64,000 nucleotides of DNA from Nostoc sp. CENA543 (GTDB lineage: Bacteria; Cyanobacteriota; Cyanobacteriia; Cyanobacteriales; Nostocaceae): assembly GCF_002896875.1 (NCBI RefSeq), contig NZ_CP023278.1, forward strand, positions 3,410,001 to 3,474,000. The letters are read 5' to 3'. Below, one piece after another: positions 4,610-28,581 of the stretch. Position 1 is the stretch's first letter, and each line of letters begins with the position of its first letter. A program made the position numbers and the translations under genes. The notes beneath the pieces are model-generated. The model was given only the letters and a program-made list of their open reading frames with translations. It searched no databases and was not told the origin of the DNA.

Positions 4610-6163
4610 ATGACAACAAATATGAAAACCGATTTCCCTCCGGCGGCGACTGCCACACCTGTATTAGAAATGCAAGGGATTGCGAAACGATTTCATGGTG
4701 TTCCGGCTTTGCAGGGTGTCAATCTCACCATTTATCCAGGAGAGGTTCACGCCCTCATGGGTGAAAATGGCGCAGGTAAAAGCACATTAATGAAAATCTT
4801 AGCTGGGGCTTATATTGCCGATGAAGGTGAAATTCGCATTCATGGTCAACCTGTGAAAATTACTGATCCAGGTACAGCAAGACAAGCGGGAATTAATCTG
4901 ATCTACCAAGAATTGAATGTTGCACCCAATTTAACTGTCACTGAAAACATTTTTATGGGGAGTGAGTTGCAAAAGGGTCAGTTTTTAGACCGCAAAAGCA
5001 TGGAACTCGAAGCCCAACAAGTGTTAGACAGTTTGGGAGCTAGTTTTTCACCGCAGACTATAGTGGGAAAATTAGCGATCGCAGAACAACAACAAGTCGA
5101 AATTGCCAGGGCTTTAAAAGACAACAGTCGGATTTTGGTGATGGATGAGCCAACCGCAGCCCTGTCTGACCGCGAAACTGAGCGTTTGTTTGAGGTAATT
5201 CGCAAACTCCGCCATGATGGCATTGCCATTATCTACATCAGCCATCGTATGGAAGAAATCTATGCTCTAGCTGACCGTATTAGTGTACTGCGAGATGGTC
5301 AATATATCGGCAGTCTCACCCGTGAGGAGATTTCCCCCCAGCGATTAGTACAGATGATGGTCGGCCGTTCCATGCAGGACTTTTACGAACATCAACGGCA
5401 GAAAAATCCAGGTGCTGTGGTGCTAGAAGTCAGAAATATTAGTGACGGACGCAAAGTGCAGCCTACTAGCTTTCAACTGCGTGCTGGGGAAATTTTGGGA
5501 TTATCGGGGCTAGTTGGTGCAGGCCGTTCAGAAATATCGCGGTTGATTTTCGGTGCTGACCGCAAAATCAGTGGTGAAGTCTTCCTCAATGGCAAAAAAT
5601 TAGAAATTAATTCCCCGACTGATGCCATTGCAGCTGGGATTGGTTACGTCCCAGAAGACCGCAAAGACCAAGGTTTATTTTTGGAAATGAGTTCCCGTAA
5701 GAATATCGGACTCAATCGACTTAAACAGGATGCCAAAGCAGGCATTGTCAATTGGGGTTCAGTCAATAAAATTGCCACGGAAGCCGTCGAAAACTTTCAT
5801 ATCCGACTGGCTAATTTGGAAATTAGAGCCGTGGATCTTTCCGGTGGTAATCAACAAAAACTGCTATTAGCGCGTTGGCTAGCCATTAATCCTAGAGTCT
5901 TGATGTTGGATGAACCCACACGCGGCGTAGATATCGGCGCGAAAAGCGAAATTTACCGCATTATTAGCGATTTAGCAGACCAAGGGGTAGCAATTCTCAT
6001 GGTTTCTAGTGAACTACCAGAGATTGTGGGTATGAGCGATCGCGTTTTAGTCATGCGCGAAGGCAAGTTAGTCGGTGAACTTGACGACACCCAAGGCAAG
6101 GAAATTACCCAAGAAAACATTATGCACTATGCAACTGGAGCATCGGAGGTATCTGCATCATGA
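4610..6163 (+). CDS. frtB: Sugar ABC transporter ATPase with two ATP-binding domains, probably FrtB
   Basis: 517 residues, the usual length for RbsA/MglA-type double ATPases. The first domain has Walker [10 protein letters not shown] (51-59) and Walker [13 protein letters not shown]. The second has the degenerate P-loop GLVGAGRSE (about 299-307), signature LSGGNQQK and Walker [11 protein letters not shown]. It energises uptake through the FrtC permease at the inner membrane. Its stop overlaps the frtC start by 4 bp (ATGA), showing translational coupling. Start choice is between ATG 4610 and ATG 4622; neither has an obvious Shine-Dalgarno because a repeat array occupies the leader. Confidence 0.9.
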
Positions 6164-7158
6164 GTCAAACTTTAAGACCAATCAACAACAGACCCAATCA
6201 AAATTCCTCAGCTAATCGGCGCAAATCCATCAACAACTTACTGCAAGTAGCAGGGATTTTACCGATTTTAGTCATTATCTGTATCTTATTTTCCCTGCTA
6301 AGTCCCAACTTTTTCACACCAGGTAACGCCGTCAATATCTTACGTCAGGCATCAATCAATATTGTCTTGGCAACGGGGATGACTTTTGTGATTCTCACCG
6401 GTGGTATTGACCTTTCCGTGGGTTCAATCTTGGCGGTATCTGCGGTAGTTGCAGTTTTAGTATCTTTACTACCGGCGTTGGGTTGGTTAGCTGTACCTGC
6501 GGCTTTAGTCACGGGATTGCTTTTGGGTTTACTCAACGGTGCGTTAATTACCTTTTTGGATGTACCGCCGTTTATTGTCACCTTGGGTTCATTAACCGCC
6601 TTGCGGGGTGCGGCGTTTCTAGTTGCTAACGGTACGACAGTAATTAACCGCAACATCAATTTTGCTTGGGTAGGTAATAGCTATGTCGGCCCTCTTCCTT
6701 GGTTAGTGATCCTCGCCTTACTGACGGTAGCTGTAAGTTGGTTTGTGCTGCGACAAACGGTTTTAGGTGTGCAGATTTACGCCGTTGGTGGTAACGAACG
6801 TGCCGCCAGATTAACCGGCATTAAAGTCAATCGCGTGTTGCTATTTGTCTATGGTTTGAGTGGATTACTTTCAGGTTTAGCCGGAATTATGAGTGCTAGT
6901 CGCCTGTATAGTGCCACAGGCATTTTAGGACAGGGTTATGAATTAGATGCGATCGCAGCCGTAATTCTAGGTGGTACAAGTTTCACCGGTGGGATAGGCA
7001 CTATCGGCGGTACACTCCTTGGTGCATTAATCATTGCCGTCCTCAACAACGGCCTAACCCTGCTCAATATGTCCTACTTCTGGCAACTAGTCGTTAAAGG
7101 CTTAGTCATCATCGCCGCAGTCATGATTGACAGACTCCGCAGACGTTCTCGACGTTAA
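6160..7158 (+). CDS. frtC: Sugar ABC transporter permease, probably FrtC
   Basis: 332 residues, strongly hydrophobic with roughly eight to ten membrane segments, of the RbsC/AraH branched permease family. Family hallmarks include [16 protein letters not shown] near residue 70, [10 protein letters not shown], and the C-terminal [18 protein letters not shown] loop. It forms the membrane pore of the FrtABC importer and is translationally coupled to frtB by a 4-bp overlap. No clear terminator follows. Confidence 0.9.
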
Positions 7159-7524
7159 AAACCACAGTTACAGGAGGGTTTGATCAGAGGCAGGGGGCAG
7201 GGTGAGGAGGGCAGGGGGAACTAAAAGTACCTCACCCGCAAGTGGCGTGATTTTTCCCCCTGCTCCCCTGCTGTTCATTCATAACTCTCCTTCTCTCCTC
7301 TCTGCACTTTTATCGAAAAATTGGGTTGAAAACCCCGTCCTTGTACAATACTTTTCTTTTCCTTTGTTCCTTCGCGCCTTTGCGCCTTTGCGTGAGACAA
7401 TTCATATTCTCAATCACCAACGCCAAAAATTGAAACCTCTCCAACACCGATACATATAACGAGAGATTTCTAATTTTTCACGCATATTTTTACCCATATC
7501 TAGCCAAACATCACACTACACCCA
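7159..7524. other. Intergenic region between frtC and the porin gene
   Basis: Contains GGGCAGGG-type G-rich sequence, its pyrimidine counterpart, and a CGCGCCTTTGCGCCTTTGCG repeat near 7374-7393. An 85-codon frame inside it reads only repeat sequence. No clear promoter or terminator could be picked by eye. Confidence 0.5.
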
Positions 7525-9126
7525 ATGCTGAAACACCTTTTATCCAGTTTGCCGCTTTTATTGTTGGCATCTCCAGCCGTCTTAGCCGCACCCGTAGATA
7601 ATTCTCAATCCGCAGATATCGACCAAGAACAAGTCACCTCAGTTTCTCAATTCTCCGATGTCCAACCAACAGACTGGGCATTTGCCGCATTGCAATCATT
7701 AGTAGAACGCTACGGTTGTATTGCTGGTTATCCTAACGCCACCTATCGCGGCAACCGTGCCTTAACTCGTTATGAATTTGCCGCAGGTTTAAATGCTTGC
7801 TTAGACCGCATCAATGAATTAATCGCCACATCTACCAGTAATTTAGTCAATCAAGAAGACCTAGTAGTGTTGCAAAAATTACAAACTGACTTTGCTAACG
7901 AATTAGCAACCCTACGTGGTCAGGTAGATAGCTTAGAGACACGTACCGCCACATTAGAACAGCAGCAGTTTTCCACCACTACCAAGCTGAGTGGTCAAAT
8001 TATTACTGCGGTTAGCGACACATTTGGCAATAAAGTCGGTGGCACACGGGATGAATCTCACCTCTTTTTTGCCACCCGTGGCCGTCTTAATTTAGAAAGT
8101 AGTTTTACTGGCAAAGATTTATTGCGAGTCAGATTAGAATTTGGCAACTTTGCCAACAACGCTGGCTCAAGTCAAATAGCCGCAGCCACAGGCACAGGCA
8201 TGACGCGCCTAAACTTTGATAATGATAGTAACAATGATTTATTCGTGCCGCACATTCGTTACTACTTCCCCGTCAGTGATTCCCTCTCCTTTGTTGTCGG
8301 CCCTGTAGGTATCGGCTATAACGACATCACAGATAATGTTACACCCGCCGCGATCGCCGATGATGGTAATGGTATTCCTTCATTATTTGGAAAGAACAGT
8401 TTGCTGTTTGAGAGGGGTGGCGGTGGTGCTGCTGCTAACTGGAAAATTAGCGAAGACTTGATTTTAACTCTCGGCTATTTAGCCAACAGTCCCAATCACC
8501 CCAGTCCAAAAAATGGCTTACTTGACGGCGGTTACAACGCCTTAGCCCATCTTGTTTACTACGGTAAACAAGGTGCAGTAGGTGTGGCTTACTCTCAAGG
8601 ATATAGCCCTGGTGGCAGTGTAGATATCACAGCCGGAAGAGGTAGTGCCTTATCTAGCGCGCCTTTTGGTGATAGCATTGCCACTTCTAACAGTATGCTT
8701 GGTGTACAAGAATACTATCGTTTTTCTCCTAATTTCCAAGTTCATGCTTGGGGTGGCTATATCTGGGCAACTGCTAAGAACTCTGGTTTCAGTAATATTT
8801 CTAATGGCATAGGTAGCAAAGATTCCTTGTTCGTCAATAGTGGAGACAACGCCAACGCTTGGTTTGGGGCGATTGGGATGTCATTTCCAGATGTGGGAGG
8901 TAAAGGCAACTTACCAGGAATTCTCTTAGGTTTACCGCCTCGTGTTGCTCACAGTGATGTCCGAGAAGAAGGGGATAACTCATATCACATCGAAGCATTC
9001 TATCGCTGGCGAATGAACGATCACATCTCAGTGACTCCTGGTTTTTGGATGATTTTAAACCCCGAAAACAACAGTCACAACGATACGCAATACGTAGGAG
9101 TATTACGTACAACCTTTGATTTTTAA
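7525..9126 (+). CDS. OprB-family carbohydrate porin with SLH domain
   Basis: 533 residues. The signal peptide ends near ASPAVLA (residue 21). Residues about 40-95 are an SLH domain (FSDVQPTDWAFAALQSLVE, then TRYEFAAGLNACLDR) that anchors cyanobacterial porins to peptidoglycan. A short coiled coil (about 105-145) follows, then an OprB-type beta barrel ending in the terminal Phe (TTFDF) used for outer-membrane assembly. Lying directly downstream of frtABC in the same direction, it probably lets sugars across the outer membrane. Nostoc species have an oprB gene in similar sugar loci. Confidence 0.88.
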   Translation: MLKHLLSSLPLLLLASPAVLAAPVDNSQSADIDQEQVTSVSQFSDVQPTDWAFAALQSLVERYGCIAGYPNATYRGNRALTRYEFAAGLNACLDRINELIATSTSNLVNQEDLVVLQKLQTDFANELATLRGQVDSLETRTATLEQQQFSTTTKLSGQIITAVSDTFGNKVGGTRDESHLFFATRGRLNLESSFTGKDLLRVRLEFGNFANNAGSSQIAAATGTGMTRLNFDNDSNNDLFVPHIRYYFPVSDSLSFVVGPVGIGYNDITDNVTPAAIADDGNGIPSLFGKNSLLFERGGGGAAANWKISEDLILTLGYLANSPNHPSPKNGLLDGGYNALAHLVYYGKQGAVGVAYSQGYSPGGSVDITAGRGSALSSAPFGDSIATSNSMLGVQEYYRFSPNFQVHAWGGYIWATAKNSGFSNISNGIGSKDSLFVNSGDNANAWFGAIGMSFPDVGGKGNLPGILLGLPPRVAHSDVREEGDNSYHIEAFYRWRMNDHISVTPGFWMILNPENNSHNDTQYVGVLRTTFDF

Positions 9127-9181
9127 TGATTTGAGATTTGAGATTGGGAACTTGTTCTATCTCAAATCCTAAATCTCAAAT

Positions 9182-9574
9182 TTAAAACCTCAAATCCCTA
9201 TTTCCCCATTCCCCAATTCCCAATTCGGGCGTTAACCTTTGCTCTTCATAATTGGTAGCTTTTTGAGTCACAGCCAGCACCCCAAACACAATCGCACCGC
9301 CTAAAGCTAAAGCCAGCCACGGACGTTTACACAGAACAAAATCACGGACAATTCTAGCTAGAGGACTGCTTTGACGACGGATTGCTGAACAAATCAGCAT
9401 TTGATTCAACACAAACGGATCACGCACATAATGCCCGCTTTGACAAACCACTAATCTTTCTTGACAGTACGGACAAGTAAATAAGCCGATATAAGTTTTC
9501 AATACCTTTGCCCTAGTATGTCTTTGGCAGATAGGGCAAATAACATAATGATGATCAAAGGTGTGTGTATTCAT
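9182..9574 (-). CDS. Small zinc-ribbon protein with one membrane segment
   Basis: 130 residues. Two CxxC pairs (CPIC near 13-16, CPYC near 34-37) plus a further Cys suggest a zinc ribbon. A single hydrophobic segment (WLALALGGAIVFGVLAV, about 88-106) sits near the C-terminus. The last residues are encoded by CCCCAATT-type repeat DNA, so the C-terminus may have been changed by repeat insertion. Function unknown. Convergent with the porin gene. Confidence 0.7.
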   Translation of the reverse strand: MNTHTFDHHYVICPICQRHTRAKVLKTYIGLFTCPYCQERLVVCQSGHYVRDPFVLNQMLICSAIRRQSSPLARIVRDFVLCKRPWLALALGGAIVFGVLAVTQKATNYEEQRLTPELGIGEWGNRDLRF

Positions 9575-9759
9575 CTACATCTTCCGCTTAATCCTGTTAA
9601 TTGACTCTCTTGATCTGGTGATATTAAATTCCCAAACAATACTGAGTAAGCTAAAAATTCGTGTATAACTTAATCATTGATTACACACTTACTTATCCAT
9701 GCTGAAAGTTATACAATGCTTGCGCCATAAGGATATTGTAGATAGGTAAGAATTTCTAA

Positions 9760-9836
9760 TATGAATAATGGCAGTATAATTATTTGCTATTGGCAATGTT
9801 CTCTTATTGAGAGAATCAATATAGTCATTATTCATA
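9760..9836. other. Nested hairpin element, candidate structured RNA or small mobile repeat
   Basis: Outer arms ATGAATAATG (9761-9770) and CATTATTCAT (9826-9835) pair perfectly, extended by one T-A pair. Inside are two hairpins with identical TATTG loops: TTGC/GCAA (9784-9796) and TTCTCT/AGAGAA (9799-9815). This three-stem layout is unlikely in random AT-rich sequence, but no family was recognised. Confidence 0.4.
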
Positions 9837-10035
9837 CCTTAATGTTGGTGTTGTTCATTAACCATCGGTTCTCTTTTAATTTAACCATTATCTCCAGAAA
9901 CATTGAGAGCCGCAAAATTTTTTTAACTAAATCTTTGTAACCAGGGATTGGGGATTGGGGACTGGGGACTGGGGATTGGGGACTGGGGACAAAAGAGACA
10001 AGGTAGACAAGGTAGGAGATGAGAACAACTGTTCT

Positions 10036-10122
10036 CTAATGACTATTGACTAATGACTAATGACTAATGACTATTGACTAATGACTATTGACTATTGACT
10101 ATTGACTATTGACTATTGACTC
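10036..10122. repeat. Heptamer tandem repeat array (TGACTAA/TGACTAT)
   Basis: Consecutive TGACTAA and TGACTAT units, changing from one variant to the other along the array. Located 90 bp before the ClC gene. Confidence 0.85.
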
Positions 10123-10209
10123 TGACTTGTCTGCTGAATGAATAATGTCTCACAATAAGAGATAACAGATAAAAACTTAAATTTCTTCCCAGATTTACCT
10201 GTTTTTTCA

Positions 10210-12087
10210 ATGACTCTATTGCCCTCTGCTGAACTGGGGAAGGCAAAGGAACAAATTGTTTTGTCTTCCTCCCCTAACCGTTTATTGCATCTCATTAACC
10301 GTTTTCAACTTTCGCCTGAAACCGTCGTGCTGTTTTTAGCTTTAATTATCGGCGGTGGTACTGGTATGGGTGTGGTGACTTTTCATTATTTAATCGAGTT
10401 GATTCACCAACTCATGCTAGAAAATTTGATGGGTGTAATTGGGGCTTGGGGTGCTTGGACTCTGGCTTGTGTCCCCATGTTAGGTGGCTTAGTTGTAGGG
10501 TTAATGCGTTGGCGGACTCAAGATTTTGGCCCCGGACTTTCATCTTTAATTGCTGCTTCTGATGGTACAGAAATTAAGCGGCAATTACGACCAGTGACTA
10601 AAATGTTGGCTGCATCGGTTTCCTTGGGAAGTGGTGCTTCTTTGGGGCCAGAAGGGCCAAGTGTGGAAATTGGCGCGAATTTTGGGATGTTGCTGTCTCT
10701 AATTTTGCAAGTTTCCCAAGAAAAACGGCGTTTATTGTTGGGTGCTGGTGCGGCGGCGGGATTAGCAGCCGGATTTAATGCCCCGATCGCCGGAGTATTT
10801 TTCGCGCTAGAAGTAGTTATGGGGGCAACTTCTTTTGCTACTTCGGCGGTGAGTATTGTGTTACTCGCCGCAGTGGTTGCAGCTTTAATTGCTCAAATTG
10901 GTTTGGGGGCGCAACCTGCTTTTACTTTGCCAGTTTACCAAGTCCGTAGCCCTTTGGAGTTACCGATTTATTTGGGCTTGGGTTTTGGTGCTAGTTTAGT
11001 TTCTCTGATATACACACAATCAATTCGTTTAGCAAAGGCTTGTTTTGCTGGTTCAATTCCTGGCTTAAGTTTTTTTGGTAAAATTCCTCAACCCATACAC
11101 CCAATTATCGGAGGTGTAATTGTTGGTATCGCGGCTTTACAATTCCCGCAAATTTTGGGTACTGGCTATGAAACAGTCCAAGCAATGCTGCAAGATGTAG
11201 AATTTTCCCTAAATTTACTTTTAGCTTTACTACTAGTTAAGTTGCTGATGACGGCTATTAGTGCAGGTAGTGGTTTTGTGGGGGGTTTGTTCGCGCCTGC
11301 AATGTTTCTCGGTGCTTCTTTAGGATCAGCTTATGCCAAGATTTTACCCCTGATTGCTCCTGGTTTTGCTGAATATATGGCTGCACCACCAGCTTATGCA
11401 ATGGTGGGAATGGCGGCTGTATTAGCTGGGAGTGTGCGCGCTCCTTTAACGGCAATTTTAATGCTGTTTGAATTAACGCGCGACTATAGAATTGTTTTGC
11501 CTTTAATGGCGGCTGTAAGTTTAAGTGTATGGCTAGTTGACCGCATTCAACCCAATGCTGATGCTAATGCCAATTTGCAACAAATTGGCCTAGCAGAGTT
11601 GAAAGATGAACAGGAGGAATTATTACAGCAAATTTTAGTAGAGGATGCAATGCTTTCTTGCCCGAAAAAACTCCCTGCTAGCTTGGGAGTTTTGGAAGCT
11701 GCAAAAGCAATGACACGCGATCGCACCCGTAGTGCTTTAGTAATTAATGGATCAGAACAATTAGTTGGTATCCTCTCTCTAGAAGATATTAACCGCACGC
11801 TTTCCCTATGGCAAAATTACTCTAATTCTTCCACCGAAAACCAGAGTAATTTTGCCAGTCAAACTATCATGGATATCTGTACCACTGAAATACTTTATGC
11901 TTGGCGTGATGAACCTTTATCTGAGGCTTTTGATCGAATGACGCTCAGAGGTTTGCATCAGTTACCAGTGGTAGCACGGGATAACCATGAATTGATTTTA
12001 GGTTTATTAGATCGAGAACAAATCGCGCTCACCTATGACTTGGCAGTTACAAGTAAAGCAATTCATGGGTTAGTCAATGGCCATTAG
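10210..12087 (+). CDS. ClC-family chloride/proton antiporter with C-terminal CBS pair
   Basis: 625 residues. Residues 30-440 are a ClC membrane domain with the family stretches LGPEGPSVEIGA and GGLFAPAMFLG. Glu148 (in GPEGP) corresponds to the gating glutamate and Glu201 (FALE) to the internal proton glutamate of E. coli ClC, so a Cl-/H+ exchanger is expected. Residues about 480-620 form two CBS domains that usually bind adenine nucleotides. The second half of the window has another, quite different ClC at 40293. Single-gene unit. Confidence 0.9.
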   Translation: MTLLPSAELGKAKEQIVLSSSPNRLLHLINRFQLSPETVVLFLALIIGGGTGMGVVTFHYLIELIHQLMLENLMGVIGAWGAWTLACVPMLGGLVVGLMRWRTQDFGPGLSSLIAASDGTEIKRQLRPVTKMLAASVSLGSGASLGPEGPSVEIGANFGMLLSLILQVSQEKRRLLLGAGAAAGLAAGFNAPIAGVFFALEVVMGATSFATSAVSIVLLAAVVAALIAQIGLGAQPAFTLPVYQVRSPLELPIYLGLGFGASLVSLIYTQSIRLAKACFAGSIPGLSFFGKIPQPIHPIIGGVIVGIAALQFPQILGTGYETVQAMLQDVEFSLNLLLALLLVKLLMTAISAGSGFVGGLFAPAMFLGASLGSAYAKILPLIAPGFAEYMAAPPAYAMVGMAAVLAGSVRAPLTAILMLFELTRDYRIVLPLMAAVSLSVWLVDRIQPNADANANLQQIGLAELKDEQEELLQQILVEDAMLSCPKKLPASLGVLEAAKAMTRDRTRSALVINGSEQLVGILSLEDINRTLSLWQNYSNSSTENQSNFASQTIMDICTTEILYAWRDEPLSEAFDRMTLRGLHQLPVVARDNHELILGLLDREQIALTYDLAVTSKAIHGLVNGH

Positions 12088-19104: not shown

Positions 19105-20760
19105 TTAGTTTCTCACCATGACCAGTCCTGACTCTTTACCGTTGGTGTAGTAAGCACTACCAGCTACCACACCTCTTTCATGGTTGAGATGGCGGCCTAA
19201 AAGCTGACCATCCCCAGATTCTAAAGTTGATGCAGGATCTCCCAAAATAGCTGGAATGCGAATACTAATCTCATTGGGGTTCAGTTTACTGACTAAAGCT
19301 TGTGCTGGGTAATTTGTAGTCCCAACTTGGAATACGCCTGTAAGTCCTGAATATTGGCTTCTTTCTGTTAAAGAGAGGAAGCTATTATCCTGACGAGACA
19401 GTGTTAAATTGCCTTGAATGTTGTTGAATCGAGTATTCCAACTCGCCAGATAAGAACTAGGTTGAAGTGGCCTAGGAGTTTGAGACACAGATGCTAACAA
19501 ACCCTGCTTTTTAGCATACCCGCCATAACGGCTACCATCTGGGTCTTTGTGGCTACCAGCCATGATTGTACCGGAATTGTCCACCATCGTGTAAGAAAAT
19601 TCTCGGTCATTACCGATTTGATCCCAACGAGCATTAGGATTTCTACCATCGATGTAGAAGCGAATTGTCTGTCCAGTTACTAACCCATTCACCTTAAAGG
19701 CTTTGCCACTGGTATCGTAAAATGTACCGATTCTGCGGTCTGTAGTAGTTACCCCAGATTTGGCGAATATCCATTGGGAATAGCCGGGTAAATGGTAGAT
19801 ATCTAGAACACCTTTCCAACCATCAAAATTGATATCCCAGCGTCCGATAAATGCTACTTCATACCAACGTTGAGGAGGCTTAATTGCTTCGATATAACCA
19901 GCGTCATAACCATATTGAAGATAGTTATAAGCAATTTTGGTATATCCACCACCCCAACTATTTTTCACGAGGAAATAGTGTTTTGTGGGGTCGGGATCAC
20001 GTCGGTCATAACCGATAATCAACATGGAGTGTGCGCCATTGGGACAATTCGCTTGACCGGTACTACAAGGCCGCCAGATAGGATTTGCTGTATTAGCAAG
20101 TAATGTATCCCATACTACTTCTTTACCTTGAGCCAAGGCTGTCTCAATTTCTACAGCACTTCTAGGGTTGATTCTTTTGAAAGATTGTACTGAGTAATAT
20201 TTATCAGCATTAAGAGCGGCAGTAGGGAGAAAACGCGGGTCTAAGTTAATATCACTCATCCGTCGTTGTTTGTTCCAGAAGGAACTGTCCCAAGGATTGG
20301 CTAGGTGAGGATGATCTGCAACTGTGTAGTTGGTGGTGCGGTAAGGCATGAGATTTTCAGACGGGACTTTAAACCCTCTGGTGAGGTTTTCGATGTAACC
20401 TACACCACCACCCCCACCAAAAACACCTACTTGAGTTTCGCTACCATCTTCCCCCTTAGCTAGAATGTCACTCCAGTTGGGATGAAGCCAGAAGGTTTTG
20501 CCGATATGGTTGAGAAATTGTTCACTCAAATCCAGATCACCATAGCCTGCTCGTTTGTAGGCGGCTTCTAAAGCTGCGATCGCACCAAATGTAATACAGG
20601 TGTTACGGCTTCCCTGATTTTTAATACTTGTTTGATAAGGACTCAGGTCTACATAGTTGGGTCTAGTCTGTGCCAAACTAACTTTTGAAGCAATTATGGT
20701 ACTGGAACTAAGAGCAATAATTGTACCTAATACCACAGATTTAATTGATGGTTTAATCAT
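19105..20760 (-). CDS. Secreted papain-like (C1A) cysteine protease
   Basis: 551 residues with a signal peptide ending near KVSLAQ (residue 31). The peptidase domain shows the papain elements: oxyanion Gln49 and catalytic Cys55 (NQGSRNTCITFG), catalytic His in GAHSMLIIGYD, and Asn in VKNSWGGGY. The usual Trp after the Cys is replaced by Ile. The C-terminal 230 residues form a separate beta-rich domain (WDINFDGWKGVLDIYHLPGY and following) of unknown role. No pro-domain is evident between the signal peptide and the protease. It heads a group of three secreted-protein genes on this strand. Confidence 0.88.
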   Translation of the reverse strand: MIKPSIKSVVLGTIIALSSSTIIASKVSLAQTRPNYVDLSPYQTSIKNQGSRNTCITFGAIAALEAAYKRAGYGDLDLSEQFLNHIGKTFWLHPNWSDILAKGEDGSETQVGVFGGGGGVGYIENLTRGFKVPSENLMPYRTTNYTVADHPHLANPWDSSFWNKQRRMSDINLDPRFLPTAALNADKYYSVQSFKRINPRSAVEIETALAQGKEVVWDTLLANTANPIWRPCSTGQANCPNGAHSMLIIGYDRRDPDPTKHYFLVKNSWGGGYTKIAYNYLQYGYDAGYIEAIKPPQRWYEVAFIGRWDINFDGWKGVLDIYHLPGYSQWIFAKSGVTTTDRRIGTFYDTSGKAFKVNGLVTGQTIRFYIDGRNPNARWDQIGNDREFSYTMVDNSGTIMAGSHKDPDGSRYGGYAKKQGLLASVSQTPRPLQPSSYLASWNTRFNNIQGNLTLSRQDNSFLSLTERSQYSGLTGVFQVGTTNYPAQALVSKLNPNEISIRIPAILGDPASTLESGDGQLLGRHLNHERGVVAGSAYYTNGKESGLVMVRN

Positions 20761-21784: not shown

Positions 21785-22696
21785 TCAGCGCAGGTTAATG
21801 GGATATTTCCTAAATGTATCTTTGCCAGTGAAACGTACCAGTGGTCGTCCCGTTCTATTAACAAGTTGTACCGCCGCAGAACAACTTTCAGGTGTCACAA
21901 CTCTGACTTTATCTACATTCCAGTTATCGTAACTTTCAAATGCGTTACGTGGAGAGCCATCGTGTTCTATTCTTAATGCAGCCAAGTCACCAACTTTTGT
22001 TCCTGATGGTAAAGGAATAGTTACTGTATTGGTGAAGTTATTTGGCCAATTTCTTCCCTGGTTAAGATTTACCTTTGACAGTGTTGTGCCATTCTGTAGT
22101 TTAATTACTCCGTAGGCTACAGAACCGCCTCGGAGGTCATCACCGCCAGTGGTAATGGCTACTTGCAAGGATGAAATAGGTGTATTTCTGGCTGAGGATG
22201 GGGCATTGAGGGTAATATCGTGAAATGTGTTGACTCCAGTCAAACGCACCAATGGCCGTCCAGATGTGTTTGCTAGTTGTACCCCAGCAGAACAGGTTCT
22301 AGGTGTAGCAACCTTGAGGGTATCAACATTCCAGTTATCGTAGCCATCAGGAAATCGTCGGGGCGCGCCATCATGTTCTAGGGTGAAAGAAACTAAATCC
22401 CCAAGTGTTGTACCTGTGGGTAAAGGTAGAGACACCCTGTAGGTGGAGTTGTTACCCCAGTTTCTACCACGATTTAGATTAACTTTTTCTGTCCTTCCAC
22501 CTCTTAATTCCACAATTCCGTACACAACAGAACCACCACGCAAATCATCACCACCAGTAGTAATGGTTACATCTAAAGCGGAAACCTCTGTTGTGGGAGA
22601 TTGAGCGATCGCACTAGACTGTTTTAGAGCCAAAACAGCAGTAGTGGGTACAAGTAAACTCAGAATTAGGCTTTTAAATCTAATATATTTGTTCAT
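21785..22696 (-). CDS. Secreted protein with two tandem copies of an unknown domain
   Basis: 303 residues with a signal peptide ending near SSAIAQ (residue 31) and a good AGGAGG site. Two repeats of about 130 residues follow, each with TTGGDDLRGGSV, KVNLN(R/Q)GRNW, LEHDG or IEHDGSPR, (Y)DNWNVD and a closing GRPLVR.TG segment. The repeats are clearly a duplication. Conserved Asp/Gly and Trp positions suggest a ligand-binding beta sandwich, but no family was recognised with confidence. Confidence 0.75.
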   Translation of the reverse strand: MNKYIRFKSLILSLLVPTTAVLALKQSSAIAQSPTTEVSALDVTITTGGDDLRGGSVVYGIVELRGGRTEKVNLNRGRNWGNNSTYRVSLPLPTGTTLGDLVSFTLEHDGAPRRFPDGYDNWNVDTLKVATPRTCSAGVQLANTSGRPLVRLTGVNTFHDITLNAPSSARNTPISSLQVAITTGGDDLRGGSVAYGVIKLQNGTTLSKVNLNQGRNWPNNFTNTVTIPLPSGTKVGDLAALRIEHDGSPRNAFESYDNWNVDKVRVVTPESCSAAVQLVNRTGRPLVRFTGKDTFRKYPINLR

Positions 22697-23043
22697 AACT
22701 ATTTCCTCCTACTTAACTTTCTGCAATCACGAGAGTTAATTGATTTTGTCCTCACTTTCAACAACAGATGAGGCTGAGAAAATATTCCGAAATTTGCTAA
22801 AAAATTTCTGCTCAACATCATAAAAAGGCTGCAAAGCAATACTCAATGAGCTTTTCGTCCCTCATGCAATCTCTAGCGGGTGCATAAAATCTCATCCCCA
22901 AACCTATATATCTAAGTGTTTTTGATCTGACAAATAGCAATTTCATTTGGTACAGAAGCATTAAGGATTAGTCTATTGAGTAATCTGCAATTGCTGTCCT
23001 CTTTTGTTCTGCTACCTTTTTTTGTAGTTGAGATAATATACTT
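22697..23043. other. Divergent intergenic region
   Basis: Shared upstream region of the secreted-protein gene (minus) and the sigma-like gene (plus). The AGGAGG site of the minus gene is at about 22706-22711. No repeat or clear operator seen. Confidence 0.5.
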
Positions 23044-23679
23044 ATGCAGTCAAAACCAATCGCAGATACCGTTACACATTTCATCATCGATGCCGAGTAT
23101 CAAGACGTAATCAGCAAGATTGCGCGCAAATATACTAGAGGCAGTTCTATGTCTTGGGAAGATGCGGCACAAACTGCAATGGTGAAAGTTTATGAAGCCG
23201 TGAAAGCTGGGAAGTTTCACCAAGGGGGAATGGCCGAATTTCAGCGTTGGGCTACAGTTGTGGCGCGATATGAGATTATTAACTATGTGAAAAAAGAACA
23301 GCTGCGTAACTACCAAAGTCTCGATGCTACTATCGCTGGTACAGATTTATTTTGGGTAGACACAATTGCTGATGATAGTAATTTATGGGATGCTGTTACC
23401 CGCGCCGATTTAATTATCCAAGCAAAACAAGCAATTATCAATCTAGATTCGCGGTATAGCGATCGCGGTTATCTCAAATTATGGCAGCTGATGGTTGCAG
23501 GGAAAAACCAAACCCAACAAGCGTCTGCACTAGGAATTAGTCAAGGGGAAGTTTCCAAGCGTTGGAAAGAATTAGTCGGACGTGTCGCAATGGAATTAGG
23601 ATTATTACAACCGGAAGCTATTAAACACGCACAAACTCAAACCAAAGTTACTCGCAGGCGTTCACAAGCCACATGGTAG
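23044..23679 (+). CDS. Sigma-70-family (ECF-like) RNA polymerase sigma factor
   Basis: 211 residues. Residues about 15-85 resemble sigma region 2 (SWEDAAQTAMVKVYEAV, AEFQRWATVVARYEIINYVKKE). Residues about 135-185 resemble region 4 with a helix-turn-helix (QTQQASALGISQGEVSKRWKELV). The two-domain layout fits a small ECF-like sigma; no anti-sigma gene is obvious next to it. The following genes are a DUF1822 protein and a CHAT protein on the same strand, so they may be its targets or partners. Confidence 0.8.
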   Translation: MQSKPIADTVTHFIIDAEYQDVISKIARKYTRGSSMSWEDAAQTAMVKVYEAVKAGKFHQGGMAEFQRWATVVARYEIINYVKKEQLRNYQSLDATIAGTDLFWVDTIADDSNLWDAVTRADLIIQAKQAIINLDSRYSDRGYLKLWQLMVAGKNQTQQASALGISQGEVSKRWKELVGRVAMELGLLQPEAIKHAQTQTKVTRRRSQATW

Positions 23680-23781
23680 TTTTTTCGCCAATTTGGAAGA
23701 ATTTATTATTTGTTGGCATAGAATAATCCACTTACTTGTTAACACAATTAACAACCCTTCAATATCGGGAAATTTTCACCT

Positions 23782-25155
23782 ATGCGTAGAGAATCTGAAA
23801 CATCTCAATCTGCTAATCTGCGAAAACCTTTAGCAGCACCACAACCTGGAGAAATCTGGGAAATCAGTCGTCACATACAATATTATGGTGAGTTTTGCCC
23901 CACTGCCGAAAATCAATTCTACTCTACCGCAGCTCAAAGCTTTTTACGGGGAGAAACTCCACCCCGCTACGTCATGATTATTACAGAACCGGAAGCAGAG
24001 ATTGTTTCTGTCATGGTGTTGTCTACCGAAACTAATTTTACTTCTGATATTAATTTATTAATTCCTGCTCAGATTTCTGGTTCAGCACAAGATTTATTAG
24101 CAGAAACTTGGCACGTACAACCGATGTTAGTTAGTAATTTATTACAGCCAGTTGGTCAAAGGTTATCAAGGAAGATTTACGATCTTTTACTAACAGTAGG
24201 AGACTATTATCATGGTTTAGTCGAGCTAAAATTAGAAAGTCATCATATTGAAAGCTTAGGTTTAAAATTAAACACTGCAACATCTTTAGACATCAATAAA
24301 ATAACGCTCTTTCACCAACAAGAACAAGCATGGAGTGATGTTTTAACAATACCTGTAGCAGCTTATTATACCTATATTAAAACTGTAAACTTTACCGATA
24401 AAATTCTCCAAGAGCAATTACACATAGAGCAAGAATTAGCAGAATTTGAGTCCCATGAACATAAATTTCTCAGTTCACTAGCTACAGCCTTAAATAAAAC
24501 CCATACTATTCTCAGTCGCTGGACACAAAATATTTTTGACCCCGAATGGCAAAATTCTTCTCAATTACCAAAATTTGCAGTTGCCACCCGCAGTGCTAGG
24601 GAATTACAACATTCTCCTCTAAACCCTAATGAAATTACGGCAATTATTCAGCAATTATCATCTACGAATAACGAAAAACAACGCCAGCGTGCAGCTAAAG
24701 ATTTAGGAGAGGTTGCTGTTGGTAATAGTGATGCAATTCAAGCCTTGGTGAATTTGTTACGCAGCACGGCTGATGATGAAACATTATGGATAGCGGTAGA
24801 AAGTTTGCGAAAACTTGATCCAGTAAATCCTGCTGCTGGTATCAGAAGAATTAAACTGATTGATTTAGGAGTGGAGATTGCAGGCAAAGATATAGCTTTA
24901 GCCGTGGCATTTTTACAAAAGATTGATGGTGATGTTAGCGTACTTTTACAAGTTTATCCCACAGGTAATCATAATTATTTACCACCTGATTTAAAACTGA
25001 TACTGCTGGATGATTCAGGTAATATATTGCGAGAAGTTACAGCTAGACGCGCTGACATTTATATCCAACTTAAGTTTAGCTGTGCAGTGGGAGAAAAATT
25101 TACTGTGCAAATAGCTTTAGATGAGACGAATTTTGGCGAAGATTTTATGATGTAA
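23782..25155 (+). CDS. DUF1822-family protein
   Basis: 457 residues. The C-terminal third (VALAVAFLQK-like stretch, LLQVYPTGNHNYLPPDLKL, ILLDDSGNILREVTARRADIYIQLKF) matches my memory of the cyanobacterial DUF1822 family. Residues about 285-345 look like two HEAT-type helical repeats (QRAAKDLGEVAVGNSDAIQA). The N-terminal part (GEIWEISRHIQYYGE) is of unknown fold. No signal or membrane segment. It lies 102 bp downstream of the sigma-like gene and 93 bp upstream of the CHAT gene. Function unknown; a regulatory link between them is plausible. Confidence 0.75.
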   Translation: MRRESETSQSANLRKPLAAPQPGEIWEISRHIQYYGEFCPTAENQFYSTAAQSFLRGETPPRYVMIITEPEAEIVSVMVLSTETNFTSDINLLIPAQISGSAQDLLAETWHVQPMLVSNLLQPVGQRLSRKIYDLLLTVGDYYHGLVELKLESHHIESLGLKLNTATSLDINKITLFHQQEQAWSDVLTIPVAAYYTYIKTVNFTDKILQEQLHIEQELAEFESHEHKFLSSLATALNKTHTILSRWTQNIFDPEWQNSSQLPKFAVATRSARELQHSPLNPNEITAIIQQLSSTNNEKQRQRAAKDLGEVAVGNSDAIQALVNLLRSTADDETLWIAVESLRKLDPVNPAAGIRRIKLIDLGVEIAGKDIALAVAFLQKIDGDVSVLLQVYPTGNHNYLPPDLKLILLDDSGNILREVTARRADIYIQLKFSCAVGEKFTVQIALDETNFGEDFMM

Positions 25156-25248
25156 TTTAACGAAAATATGTAGGTTATGGGAAAATTAATCGCAGACATA
25201 TTTTTTGTTAATTGCCAAAGCCATACCTACATATAAACATTTTAAATT

Positions 25249-28005
25249 ATGGCGTTAGTAACGTTTTTGAACTTTGCAGGTCAAAATCTTCAGGGTCGTG
25301 ACTTCAGTGGTCAAAACCTGACAAATGCAGACTTTAGTAACTCTGATATTCGCGGGGCAAATTTTACCAACGCTATTCTAAAAAATGCTAACTTTCAAAA
25401 TGCCAAAGCTGGTATTAAGAATGATTGGGCATTTTTCCTAGTCTTAGTGGCTTTTTTACTATCCATAATATCAGGAACTTTTTCAGGTTTCTCTGGCACT
25501 TATTTAATAACTTTTATATTGAGAACTGCTCCCGACATTAATATTTACCTATTTTTGGCATCATTCACCGCACTGGCACTTTTTTTTATTGTTAACATTT
25601 TTCGAGGGATCAGAGCAGCTTTAGTAACAGTTGTAATTATAAGTGCGATCGCAGGAGCTTGTTGTGGCATATTTGCTGGCACATTTCCTCAAGCAGTGGT
25701 GATTCCATTTGTCACTGGTTCTTTTATGATTGCGATTACGGTTGCTTTCCTCACGGGAGTTATAGCTTGTACTATTGCTGGCATAATTGCTATTTCCTTC
25801 ATCGCAACAATAGTTATTCTCAGTTTAATTGGCATTATTCCCGGCTCGCTGGTAGTAGCAAGAATGGCTGTGAGTATGGGACTTTTTACAGGAGATATTA
25901 CCAGTGCTTTTATTGAAAGTTTTCTTGGTGCTATTAGTGTCACGATTCTTGTGATGTTACTCAATAGTTATGTCGGTTGGCAAGCTCTAAATCTCCATGA
26001 AAAATACGACGTAATTATGAAGATTGCTGTTGCAGTAGTCAGCCTGCGCGGCACTTGTTTGAGAAATGCTGATATCAGTTCAGCTAATTTTGCTCACGCT
26101 ACTCTCCGCAATATAGACATCAGAAATGCAACTCTGACTCACTGCAACTTCTATGCTGCTAAACAACTTGATTATGCTTTGTTTGGGGAAACAATTTTAA
26201 AAAACCCAAAAGTCCGCAAGTTACTAATATCTAAAATCGGCGCGCATCAAGATTTTGTCGGTTGTAACCTGAAGGGTGCAAACCTGACAGATGCATATAT
26301 GAGTTATGCTAATTTTAGTGAAGCAGATATCAGCGAAGCTAATTTAGCAGGTGCAACTTTAGAGGGTGCAAATTTAACAAAAACTCAAGCCGTCAAAACG
26401 AATTTTCAGCAAGTAAATTTAACAGCAGCTTGTTTAGAGTCCTGGAATATAGACAACACAACTCAACTAGAAGAAGTGATTTGTGACTACGTTTATCTAT
26501 TAAATAATCAACAAGAACGTCGTCCTAGTAGTGGGGAATTTGCACCAGGGGAATTTACTAAATTATTTCAAGTCGTCATCAATACTGTTGATTTAATTTT
26601 TCGTAACGGCTTAGATTTACAAGCTTTATCTGCGGCTTTAGCAAAAGTGAAGATAGAAAATGAAGATATCCCTTTAACAATTAAAAGTATTGAAAACAAG
26701 GGAGATGGTGTTGTAGTTGTGCGGGTGGATGTACCAGAAACAACGAATAAAGCAAAAATTCATACTGAAGTTATGCAAAATTATCAATTGGCTCTGCAAC
26801 AGTTAGAAGCTAGATATCAGGCGGAATTAAAAAGTAAAGATGAACAGATTACCCTGTATCGCCAACATCAAGCAGATTTAAAAGAAATAATGCAAATGAT
26901 CGCTCCCCGTCCGCAACAATTGACACCAGGGAAGCTAGTAGTTTTAAAATTAGTGCAAGCTGATTTAAATACAGGATTTTCAGTTATCCTAGAGATTAGT
27001 TTAGAAGGCGATCGCCCATATTTTCAATCTCATGGACAATTACCTCCAGCCTCAGAATTATCCTTAGCTTACCATCAATGGCAAACTGCATATCGTCGCA
27101 GTTTACAGGGAAATGCACGCATCAAGTTTCCTGAAATGCAAGTTACTAATATTAGCCAACGAGAGTTATTTAAAGAATGCGATAAATTAGCCTATGCCGT
27201 CAAAAAACAGTTAAATTTATGGTTAAATTCAGAATTATTTCGTCCTGTTAAAGAGCAACTACTCGAAAAACTCAATCCCTCCGAATCAATTCGGATCATC
27301 TTGCAAACGGAAGATAACCTATTACGCCGCATACCCTGGCAAATTTGGGATTTTTTTGACCGATATCCTCAAGCAGAAATTGCTCTTGCTGCAACTAATT
27401 ATGAAAGAAAAGAAAAATACCAATCTGCAAAATCTCACATCAAAATATTAGCGATATTAGGAGACAGCACTGGTATTAATACGCAAAAAGATAAAATATT
27501 CCTCGAAAAATTACCTCATGCCGAAGTTCAGTTTTTGATAGAACCACAACGCCAATTACTCAATGATCAACTTTGGCTACAACCTTGGGATATTTTCTTT
27601 TTTGCTGGACACAGTTTTACTCAAATTGACCAAAAAGTTGGAAATTTTCACATTAATCAAAATGAGAGTTTAACTATTGCTGAGTTAAAAAATGCCCTCA
27701 CTAAAGCTATAGATAAAGGTCTCAGCCTAGCAATTTTTAATTCCTGCGATGGGTTAGGATTAGCAGCTAATTTTGCTGATTTGCATATCCCTCAAATGAT
27801 TGTGATGCGCGAACCAGTACCCGATAAAGTAGCACAAGAATTTTTAAAGAATTTTCTTACAGAATTTTCTAGTGGTAAACCTTTGTATCAATCAGTAAGG
27901 GAAGCACGCTTAAAATTACAAGGTTTAGAAGATGAGTTGCCTTGTGCAAGTTGGCTACCAGTAATTTGTCAAAATCCAGCAGAAATTCCTTTTACATGGT
28001 ATTAG
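25249..28005 (+). CDS. Membrane protein with pentapeptide repeats and a C-terminal CHAT protease domain
   Basis: 918 residues. Residues about 8-50 are pentapeptide repeats (QNLQGRDFSGQNLTNADFSN). About 60-245 is a bundle of roughly six hydrophobic segments. About 270-400 is a second pentapeptide block. About 520-545 is a short coiled coil. About 720-915 is a CHAT (caspase-like) domain with the catalytic pair His788 (FAGHS) and Cys833 (FNSCDG). The protein thus couples a membrane-embedded sensor or scaffold to a putative protease. It is third in the sigma/DUF1822 cluster. Confidence 0.85.
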   Translation: MALVTFLNFAGQNLQGRDFSGQNLTNADFSNSDIRGANFTNAILKNANFQNAKAGIKNDWAFFLVLVAFLLSIISGTFSGFSGTYLITFILRTAPDINIYLFLASFTALALFFIVNIFRGIRAALVTVVIISAIAGACCGIFAGTFPQAVVIPFVTGSFMIAITVAFLTGVIACTIAGIIAISFIATIVILSLIGIIPGSLVVARMAVSMGLFTGDITSAFIESFLGAISVTILVMLLNSYVGWQALNLHEKYDVIMKIAVAVVSLRGTCLRNADISSANFAHATLRNIDIRNATLTHCNFYAAKQLDYALFGETILKNPKVRKLLISKIGAHQDFVGCNLKGANLTDAYMSYANFSEADISEANLAGATLEGANLTKTQAVKTNFQQVNLTAACLESWNIDNTTQLEEVICDYVYLLNNQQERRPSSGEFAPGEFTKLFQVVINTVDLIFRNGLDLQALSAALAKVKIENEDIPLTIKSIENKGDGVVVVRVDVPETTNKAKIHTEVMQNYQLALQQLEARYQAELKSKDEQITLYRQHQADLKEIMQMIAPRPQQLTPGKLVVLKLVQADLNTGFSVILEISLEGDRPYFQSHGQLPPASELSLAYHQWQTAYRRSLQGNARIKFPEMQVTNISQRELFKECDKLAYAVKKQLNLWLNSELFRPVKEQLLEKLNPSESIRIILQTEDNLLRRIPWQIWDFFDRYPQAEIALAATNYERKEKYQSAKSHIKILAILGDSTGINTQKDKIFLEKLPHAEVQFLIEPQRQLLNDQLWLQPWDIFFFAGHSFTQIDQKVGNFHINQNESLTIAELKNALTKAIDKGLSLAIFNSCDGLGLAANFADLHIPQMIVMREPVPDKVAQEFLKNFLTEFSSGKPLYQSVREARLKLQGLEDELPCASWLPVICQNPAEIPFTWY

Positions 28006-28107
28006 TCACAGGATGTTTAGTTAAGTTGTGTATAGGGGAAGACTGAAAATAATCTTTCTATTCCATACTACAAAAGTAGGTTTTATATTTAATAAAGTTC
28101 ATGAAAT

Positions 28108-28581
28108 ATGAAAATACTCCCCCATGATACGTTTACCATTACGACACCTGACTCAGTAAATATAGTTAGACAAAGACTAAGTCAGAAAGTTGAACCACCA
28201 AAAGCATTTAGATTTTATACAAAACACGCTCCCTATGAAGGAAGCATTTCTGAAGATGGTTTTCAGATAAGTCGAATTATTCACTACCGTAATTCATTTT
28301 TACCAATGATTCGGGGACGGTTTGAAGTGCAATCTCATCAAACTTTAATTCATGTGGAGATGAATATACATCCTTTTGTGATGGCGTTTTTAGGATTTTG
28401 GTTTTTCTTTTGGTACAGTGCAGTTATTCCCATATTATTCACTGGTTCTATACCTAATCACATAACCCCAATATTTGTAAGTATGCCTATACTAATGTTG
28501 TTTATCTGTTGGGGATCTTTTTGGTATGAGGCAAAGCGTAGTCGCACTGAATTGACGCAAATTATTCAAGGACAAGTGTAA
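28108..28581 (+). CDS. Small membrane protein, unknown function
   Basis: 157 residues. The N-terminal 90 residues are soluble (including YTKHAPYEGSISEDGFQISR). Two hydrophobic segments follow at about 91-112 and 118-138, then a short charged tail. No family recognised. It is 102 bp downstream of the CHAT gene and convergent, 5 bp apart, with the metalloprotease gene. Confidence 0.7.
   Translation: MKILPHDTFTITTPDSVNIVRQRLSQKVEPPKAFRFYTKHAPYEGSISEDGFQISRIIHYRNSFLPMIRGRFEVQSHQTLIHVEMNIHPFVMAFLGFWFFFWYSAVIPILFTGSIPNHITPIFVSMPILMLFICWGSFWYEAKRSRTELTQIIQGQV

Follow-up and report, generated by a model that had tools for sequence, protein, structure and literature searches.

Organization of the four-gene cluster

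The DNA analysed here is a 64,000-nt stretch (the window) of the 7.2 Mb genome of Nostoc sp. CENA543, NZ_CP023278.1 positions 3,410,001–3,474,000, and its subject is a cluster that encodes a sigma factor, a DUF1822 protein, a membrane protein with a CHAT domain, and a small protein, which may include a protease-gated transcription switch (Table 1). The four open reading frames (ORFs) all lie on the plus strand and are separated by gaps of 102, 93, and 102 bp, which agrees with the co-directional layout and gaps of 93–102 bp described in an earlier note on this DNA. The assignments that the note had made for the first three genes are upheld by database models. The first protein scores 34.8 bits against Pfam Sigma70_r2 (cut-off 24) and 50.5 bits against the NCBIfam sigma70-ECF superfamily model TIGR02937 (cut-off 42.9), and with both region 2 and the superfamily model above cut-off it is a predicted extracytoplasmic function (ECF) sigma factor. 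Kinship to the type III-E CRISPR sigma NF041236 was rejected (20.8 bits, cut-off 100). The second protein matches DUF1822 with 125 bits at residues 233–456 and also HEAT_2. The third features pentapeptide repeats and a CHAT domain (PF12770, 54.3 bits, cut-off 24) and retains the His/Cys pair that the note had read as intact, with His788 in FFAGHS and Cys833 in FNSCDG; its score above the gathering cut-off and this pair mark it as a putative CHAT peptidase. Hydropathy and the AlphaFold2 (AF2) model place its membrane helices at ~residues 55–266. The note had counted about six membrane segments; the membrane region stands, but the helices merge in a way that neither bears out nor contradicts the number six.

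Table 1. Features of the cluster and its intergenic regions, in window positions.
Feature	Position	Strand	Size or detail	Basis
Conserved element TATTCCGAAATTT... upstream of sigma	22783–22807	+		TATTCCGAA recurrence
ECF-type sigma factor, sigA-type (type A)	23044–23679	+	211 aa	Sigma70_r2, TIGR02937
Bipartite ECF-type promoter-like box, GGCATA-N16-TGTTAA	23715–23742	+	Ends 39 bp before adaptor ATG	
Putative adaptor: MazF/PemK-like N-domain (~aa 20–145), helical linker, HEAT, C-terminal beta domain (DUF1822)	23782–25155	+	457 aa	Pfam, AF2, Foldseek, profile
Inverted repeat in adaptor–CHAT gap (possible RNA hairpin)	25166–25234	+	z −2.56	
Pentapeptide – membrane helices – pentapeptide – alpha/beta and coil – EACC2-like – CHAT protein	25249–28005	+	918 aa; His788/Cys833	Pfam, AF2, Foldseek
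Small fourth gene	28108–28581	+	157 aa	

Association of sigma, DUF1822, and CHAT genes

The Nostoc genome contains eight DUF1822 genes, each preceded by a sigma-like gene that is the direct neighbour in seven cases; in L003 a TPR-CHAT gene stands between the sigma and DUF1822 genes (L-numbers, L001 etc., denote DNA stretches fetched around clusters or genes of interest). Seven of the eight have a Pfam CHAT match within ~4 kb, the exception being L001. A neighbourhood survey took in the DUF1822 matches above the curated cut-off in 21 genomes of the class among 59 drawn, 17 of these 21 having one; matches below the cut-off and those in 21 genomes outside the class lie outside it. Genes were labelled with profiles built from the clusters of the Nostoc genome, and CHAT counts come from profiles held to the CHAT part. 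A sigma-like gene is located directly upstream on the same strand in 51 of the 58 DUF1822 genes and within four genes in 54, the four without a sigma match being L100, L103, L112, and the second gene of L133. CHAT genes are near on the same strand in 37/58 (41 counting both strands), an EACC2-CHAT gene lies downstream in 30/58, and sigma and CHAT genes accompany DUF1822 together in 34/58. These counts speak against a random association of the three families, which the earlier note had named as an outcome that would refute its reading.

The sigma-like genes near DUF1822 fall into four types (A–D), of which the window represents type A. In profile comparisons type A matches C (E 7e-10) and B (8e-9), and B is also matched by C (3e-5) and by D (3e-16); the links of D to A and to C are weak (0.004). 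Four members of types C and D that were scanned have low scores or none in Pfam and NCBIfam, and for these types the label "sigma-like" therefore rests on the profile links.

The putative adaptor and its MazF-like domain

The AF2 model of the DUF1822 protein (six sequences) has a predicted local distance difference test (pLDDT) score of 62.6 and features a beta-barrel N-domain, a poorly ordered helical stretch at residues 190–280, HEAT-like helices at 282–345, and a C-terminal beta domain at 356–456. Foldseek matches the N-domain to MazF structures with a probability of 1.00, E values from 1.5e-5, and target TM-scores of 0.63–0.81 among the MazF matches listed. A profile built from 21 N-domains gave ten matches up to E 10 among PDB sequences, of which five are MazF chains, including the two best, with marginal E values of 0.018–0.053; the remaining matches are a designed inhibitor (0.038) and four ribosomal S2 proteins. 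The four N-domains scanned against Pfam gave no PemK/MazF match up to E 10, a range in which HMMER drops most matches above 0.1. The N-domain is predicted to adopt a MazF-like fold and is not called a MazF toxin here.

Arg62 is conserved in 16 of the 21 N-domains and Ser81 in 20, and we take these positions to match catalytic positions of MazF. Together with the fold, this conservation is what speaks for an active mRNA interferase that the protease would release as a toxin. The Arg is missing from five of the 21 domains, where it is replaced by I, N, or E or falls in a gap (two domains), and the Pfam scan points the same way, so that an active interferase appears highly improbable. Searches of the adaptor against PLSDB found partial matches on 9 cyanobacterial plasmid records, including one to its N-half at 49% identity on a plasmid of Nostoc sp. 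UHCC 0302.

Sorting of modules between clusters

The MazF-like domain was searched for with profile A7 and found in 17 of 388 genomes of the class and 32 of 388 genomes of the order, two draws that overlap. Every match of both draws was fetched, and the fetched loci contain 48 MazF-like genes after the duplicate loci L156 and L182 were dropped. EACC2-CHAT genes occur within four genes of 29 of the 32 MazF-like genes that also carry DUF1822 and of none of the 16 that do not. The three exceptions among the 32 are L038, L072, and L076, of which L076 is located where a contig ends. A profile-detected sigma gene lies directly upstream in 41 of the 48; in L159 the sigma gene is one small ORF further up, and in L172 it is nearby on the other strand. 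The gene upstream in L088 has region-4 similarity just below the cut-off (21.6 bits, cut-off 24.1), L089 has a similar gene that Pfam does not score, and no sigma gene was seen near the MazF-like genes of L072 and L180. This sorting, together with two of the 16 genes without DUF1822 (L088 and L089), in which the MazF-like domain heads a large protein behind a sigma-like gene, suggests that the MazF-like domain goes with sigma and that DUF1822 goes with CHAT, and it fits the role of adaptor that the earlier note had given to the DUF1822 protein. A sigma–MazF fusion in L177 was rejected and is read as decay because its sigma match is partial and its CHAT gene is cut short.

Several variant clusters were found. 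In L088 (5682–11045) and L089 (443–5830) a sigma-like gene is followed by a gene for a ~1300-aa protein headed by the MazF-like domain, with neither DUF1822 nor CHAT; the L088 protein consists mainly of WD40 repeats (Pfam) with an NB-ARC/STAND-like part read by eye, and the L089 protein resembles it. The sigma-less L100 (G042:C5:19000-33000, 5797–9431) encodes an XRE-type helix-turn-helix (HTH) protein, a PIN-DUF1822 protein, and an EACC2-CHAT-pentapeptide protein, so that a second toxin-type fold is found on DUF1822. The genome of L038 encodes a 715-aa protein with the pentapeptide–membrane–pentapeptide part of the window protein and without the CHAT module. Judging by these variants, the sensor, the protease, the DUF1822 part, and the sigma partner appear to be interchangeable. 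In L039 (1559–12209), from a Richelia metagenome-assembled genome, two sigma–adaptor–CHAT clusters stand in tandem, and the CHAT gene of the second is broken into two frames.

The EACC2-CHAT protein

The AF2 model of the 918-aa protein has a pLDDT of 59.3. An alpha+beta domain directly before the CHAT domain is probably the EACC2 domain of Kaur et al. 2021. EACC2-CHAT modules scoring above 60 bits number 57, and they start within the first 60 residues in 42 proteins, beyond residue 300 in 14, and at residue 133 in one; the window module begins at residue 561 of 918. Thirteen of the 14 C-terminal modules belong to clusters with the sigma type of the window, the remaining one being L118. One profile recovers both the N-terminal-module and the C-terminal-module proteins, and the window protein aligns to the N-terminal-module proteins L003, L004, L005, and L006 with 55, 36, 49, and 27% identity. 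None of the 55 distinct modules in the alignment, which has 56 rows with the window entered twice, has lost the His/Cys dyad. The genome of the window contains 27 CHAT matches, and to our knowledge few CHAT proteins have a known substrate.

The invariant dyad also fits a reading in which the CHAT protein cleaves itself on sensing and thereby activates the system, the sigma factor being coupled to it and carrying a wider transcriptional response, and the DUF1822 protein serving as a scaffold, not a substrate. Autopeptidase activation and sigma output were proposed for EACC2-caspase systems in the accessible part of Kaur et al. (PMC8195603). Taken alone, this reading leaves unexplained why it is DUF1822 that keeps company with the CHAT gene and not the MazF-like domain, and we regard it as unlikely.

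A promoter-like box between sigma and adaptor

The gap between the sigma and adaptor genes features a bipartite box of the general form GGCATA-N16-CGTTAA-like, an anatomy which we take to be that of an ECF promoter. The pattern was written by eye from 20 gaps of the window's type and scanned over 223 nt from the sigma stop. The box is present with a spacer of 16 in 16 of these 20 gaps, and any other spacer from 8 to 26 gives 0–1 of 20; 500 first-order Markov resamples gave a mean of 0.13 of 20 and a largest count of 2. The figure of 16/20 overstates the recurrence because the pattern was fitted on the same gaps, among which the window and L038, and L073 and L075, are close relatives. With the pattern frozen, a later set of 22 gaps gave six matches at spacer 16 and 0–1 at spacers 10–23, against an expectation of ~0.14 (binomial P 5e-9 with gaps treated as independent). 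In six of the later misses (L167, L168, L173–L176) the intergenic gap is too short for the box, and L169 and L170 hold near-miss boxes with a different -10 half as read by eye. Upstream of the sigma gene the pattern occurs in 1 of 20 and 1 of 22 regions.

We infer that the window sigma reads this box. The earlier note had counted separate promoters against a joint system; the conserved box in the sigma–DUF1822 gap looks ECF-like and suggests instead feedback by this sigma. The strict box has four sites in the genome, two of them at the two sigA-type clusters, and a wide regulon was rejected (4 sites in 7.2 Mb compared with 3 for the reversed control). Allowing up to 2 mismatches, the window contains 9 matches, fewer than the chance expectation of 12.9.

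Proposed mechanism

These observations can be joined in a membrane-bound, protease-gated sigma switch with a two-faced adaptor and local feedback, a proposal that is tentative and to which we give a little less than even confidence. The MazF-like N-domain of the adaptor would contact and probably restrain the sigma factor, and the DUF1822 part at the C-terminus would dock on the EACC2-CHAT protein. The latter would sense a signal via its pentapeptide and membrane segments, and the His788/Cys833 protease would then cut either itself or the adaptor, in the latter case most probably within the linker of low predicted order (~residues 190–280). The cut would free the sigma factor, which may read the box and raise the production of adaptor and protease in a feedback loop. 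Both the restraint of sigma by the adaptor and the cleavage of the adaptor by the docked protease are proposed by analogy with Csx30 of Craspase and with DdvA, as these are described in the sources cited below. Among the distance correlations of 25 clusters, which are not corrected for relatedness, the highest (0.79) is that between the C-terminal DUF1822 part and EACC2-CHAT, which lends the proposal weak support.

Several findings weigh against the proposed switch. The same correlations relate sigma less closely to the MazF-like domain (0.64) than to the DUF1822 C-terminal part or EACC2-CHAT (0.74 each), a pattern that does not favour the MazF-like domain as the sigma face, and the MazF-like and DUF1822 parts correlate least (0.52) though they share one chain. 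No CHAT gene is near on the same strand in 21 of the 58 DUF1822 genes, and the Fisher test of the module sorting (p 4e-10) is uncorrected for relatedness. In L038 (Nostoc sp. CMAA1605, 9263–11660) sigma and adaptor are kept at 92–95% identity, but no CHAT gene adjoins them; the gap there begins much as that of the window does, which suggests that CHAT was lost by deletion, and this genome carries other EACC2-CHAT genes. The confidence of both AF2 models is modest. The box is missing from 4 of the 20 gaps of the first set (L041, a short contig, L082, L084, and L087) and from 16 of the 22 later ones, and the later matches are partly kin: three (L159, L162, and L164) are sister loci from a single genus, and the box of L160 is almost the same as the one in L081 of the first set.

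The gaps without a box bear on the feedback step, for which the box might serve another regulator or ordinary SigA transcription; this possibility touches that step only and is compatible with the other readings. L087 has the pattern upstream of its sigma gene instead, and the pairing of sigma and promoter is itself deduced. The rigid spacer of 16 nt with variable letters and hexamers unlike TTGACA and TATAAT argue the other way, and we consider such a use of the box somewhat unlikely.

A box that puts adaptor and CHAT under sigma control could also belong to a cell-death module, in which the membrane CHAT protease acts as a suicide effector and sigma and DUF1822 merely set its expression. Caspase-type systems of this kind are counted by Kaur et al. 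(PMC8195603) among the mechanisms of cell death and immunity. None of the four proteins matches any of the 5027 PADLOC models at E<=0.1, and the adaptor has no match among 50,697 phage records; neither result is decisive, and we judge a suicide effector improbable. The protease-gated switch may further belong to a new class of such transcription switches, in which toxin-fold domains (MazF-like, or PIN behind an XRE-type HTH in L100) act as sigma or HTH partners, are joined via DUF1822 to a membrane CHAT protein, and are subject to feedback through a sigma box; this wider generalization is more doubtful than the switch itself.

Other features of the locus

The earlier note had included the fourth gene as a small membrane protein of the cluster. 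The ORF is present, but its membership was rejected, and the gene is set aside because it was not found beside five relatives: tblastn was negative in the stretches L007, L038, L039, L040, and L041 around the cluster, and the gene could sit elsewhere in those genomes. Its product has no match in Pfam or NCBIfam at E<=0.1. The inverted repeat between adaptor and CHAT genes was rejected as a general feature, since it occurs in two of the 22 gaps listed (window and L039), and Rfam gave nothing above gathering scores for it.

The motif TATTCCGAA recurs in 7 of 22 regions upstream of sigA-type genes, where any 9-mer reaches at most 4 in five shuffles. In L040 (12900–13204) TATTCCGAAATTT precedes the CHAT gene, which is separated there from sigma and adaptor. 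A different element, TAAAGTTTTGTAA, recurs upstream of type C sigma genes (e.g. L004, L091, L096, L097, L122), and AAGTTTTGT occurs in 9 of 37 type C upstream regions, again with no 9-mer above 4 in five shuffles; the reverse complement of the TAAAGTTTTGTAA element resembles the RpaB HLR1 site. On the minus strand, genes for a papain-family protease (19105–20760) and for a 303-aa protein with two similar halves (21785–22696) adjoin the cluster, and the latter also adjoins it in L038. A second, stronger CHAT match in the window lies at 52341–53174 on the minus strand (G000:C1:3462341-3463174) in a 1072-aa frame.

Comparison with known systems

The cluster is a real and conserved, partly published association. 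Systems described by Kaur et al. (PMC8195603) have a constant N-terminal EACC2 domain and caspase followed by C-termini that vary, and where TRADD-N is absent most of their neighbourhoods also include genes for an ECF sigma and a DUF1822 protein. The earlier note knew of no described system with this make-up, which in view of that account is wrong for the gene association. The window shares with these systems its ECF sigma and DUF1822 neighbours and an alpha+beta domain directly before a caspase-type domain; it differs in that its module is C-terminal, behind the pentapeptide, transmembrane, and pentapeptide parts, whereas theirs is N-terminal in the text available, and C-terminal modules may be present in the figures or supplements of that paper. 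The word "MazF" does not occur in PMC8195603. The MazF-like front of the adaptor, the swappable modules, and the box inside the cluster look new within the literature searched, which held few subscription papers.

The adaptor N-domain resembles MazF/PemK endoribonucleases in its predicted fold and differs from them in that it lacks a Pfam family match and an invariant Arg, is fused to DUF1822, and adjoins a sigma gene. DdvA is a transmembrane anti-sigma of the ECF sigma DdvS, which is active once DdvA is inactivated (PMC4374960, available part). The CHAT model has a weak Foldseek match to DdvA (PDB 8rot, E 3.5e-4), but the TM-score is only ~0.2.

A working parallel is type III-E Craspase, in which the CHAT protease Csx29 cuts Csx30, an inhibitor of CASP-sigma (PMC10028731), so that both systems combine a CHAT protease, a middle protein, and an ECF sigma. 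The best Foldseek match of the CHAT model is the Craspase chain 7zoq_A (E 1.9e-7), and phmmer gave no match of the CHAT module in the PDB. The Craspase protease is a TPR-CHAT protein, whereas that of the window features a pentapeptide and membrane N-terminus with no Pfam TPR match at E<=0.1, and the 50 Foldseek matches listed for the adaptor are MazF and a few helical proteins, none of them named Csx30. If the proposed switch is correct, the cluster would do without CRISPR what the sigma switch of Craspase does and would assign a function to DUF1822, and it offers a testable wiring made up of a sigma-holding domain, a protease-facing domain, and a promoter that reports the output.

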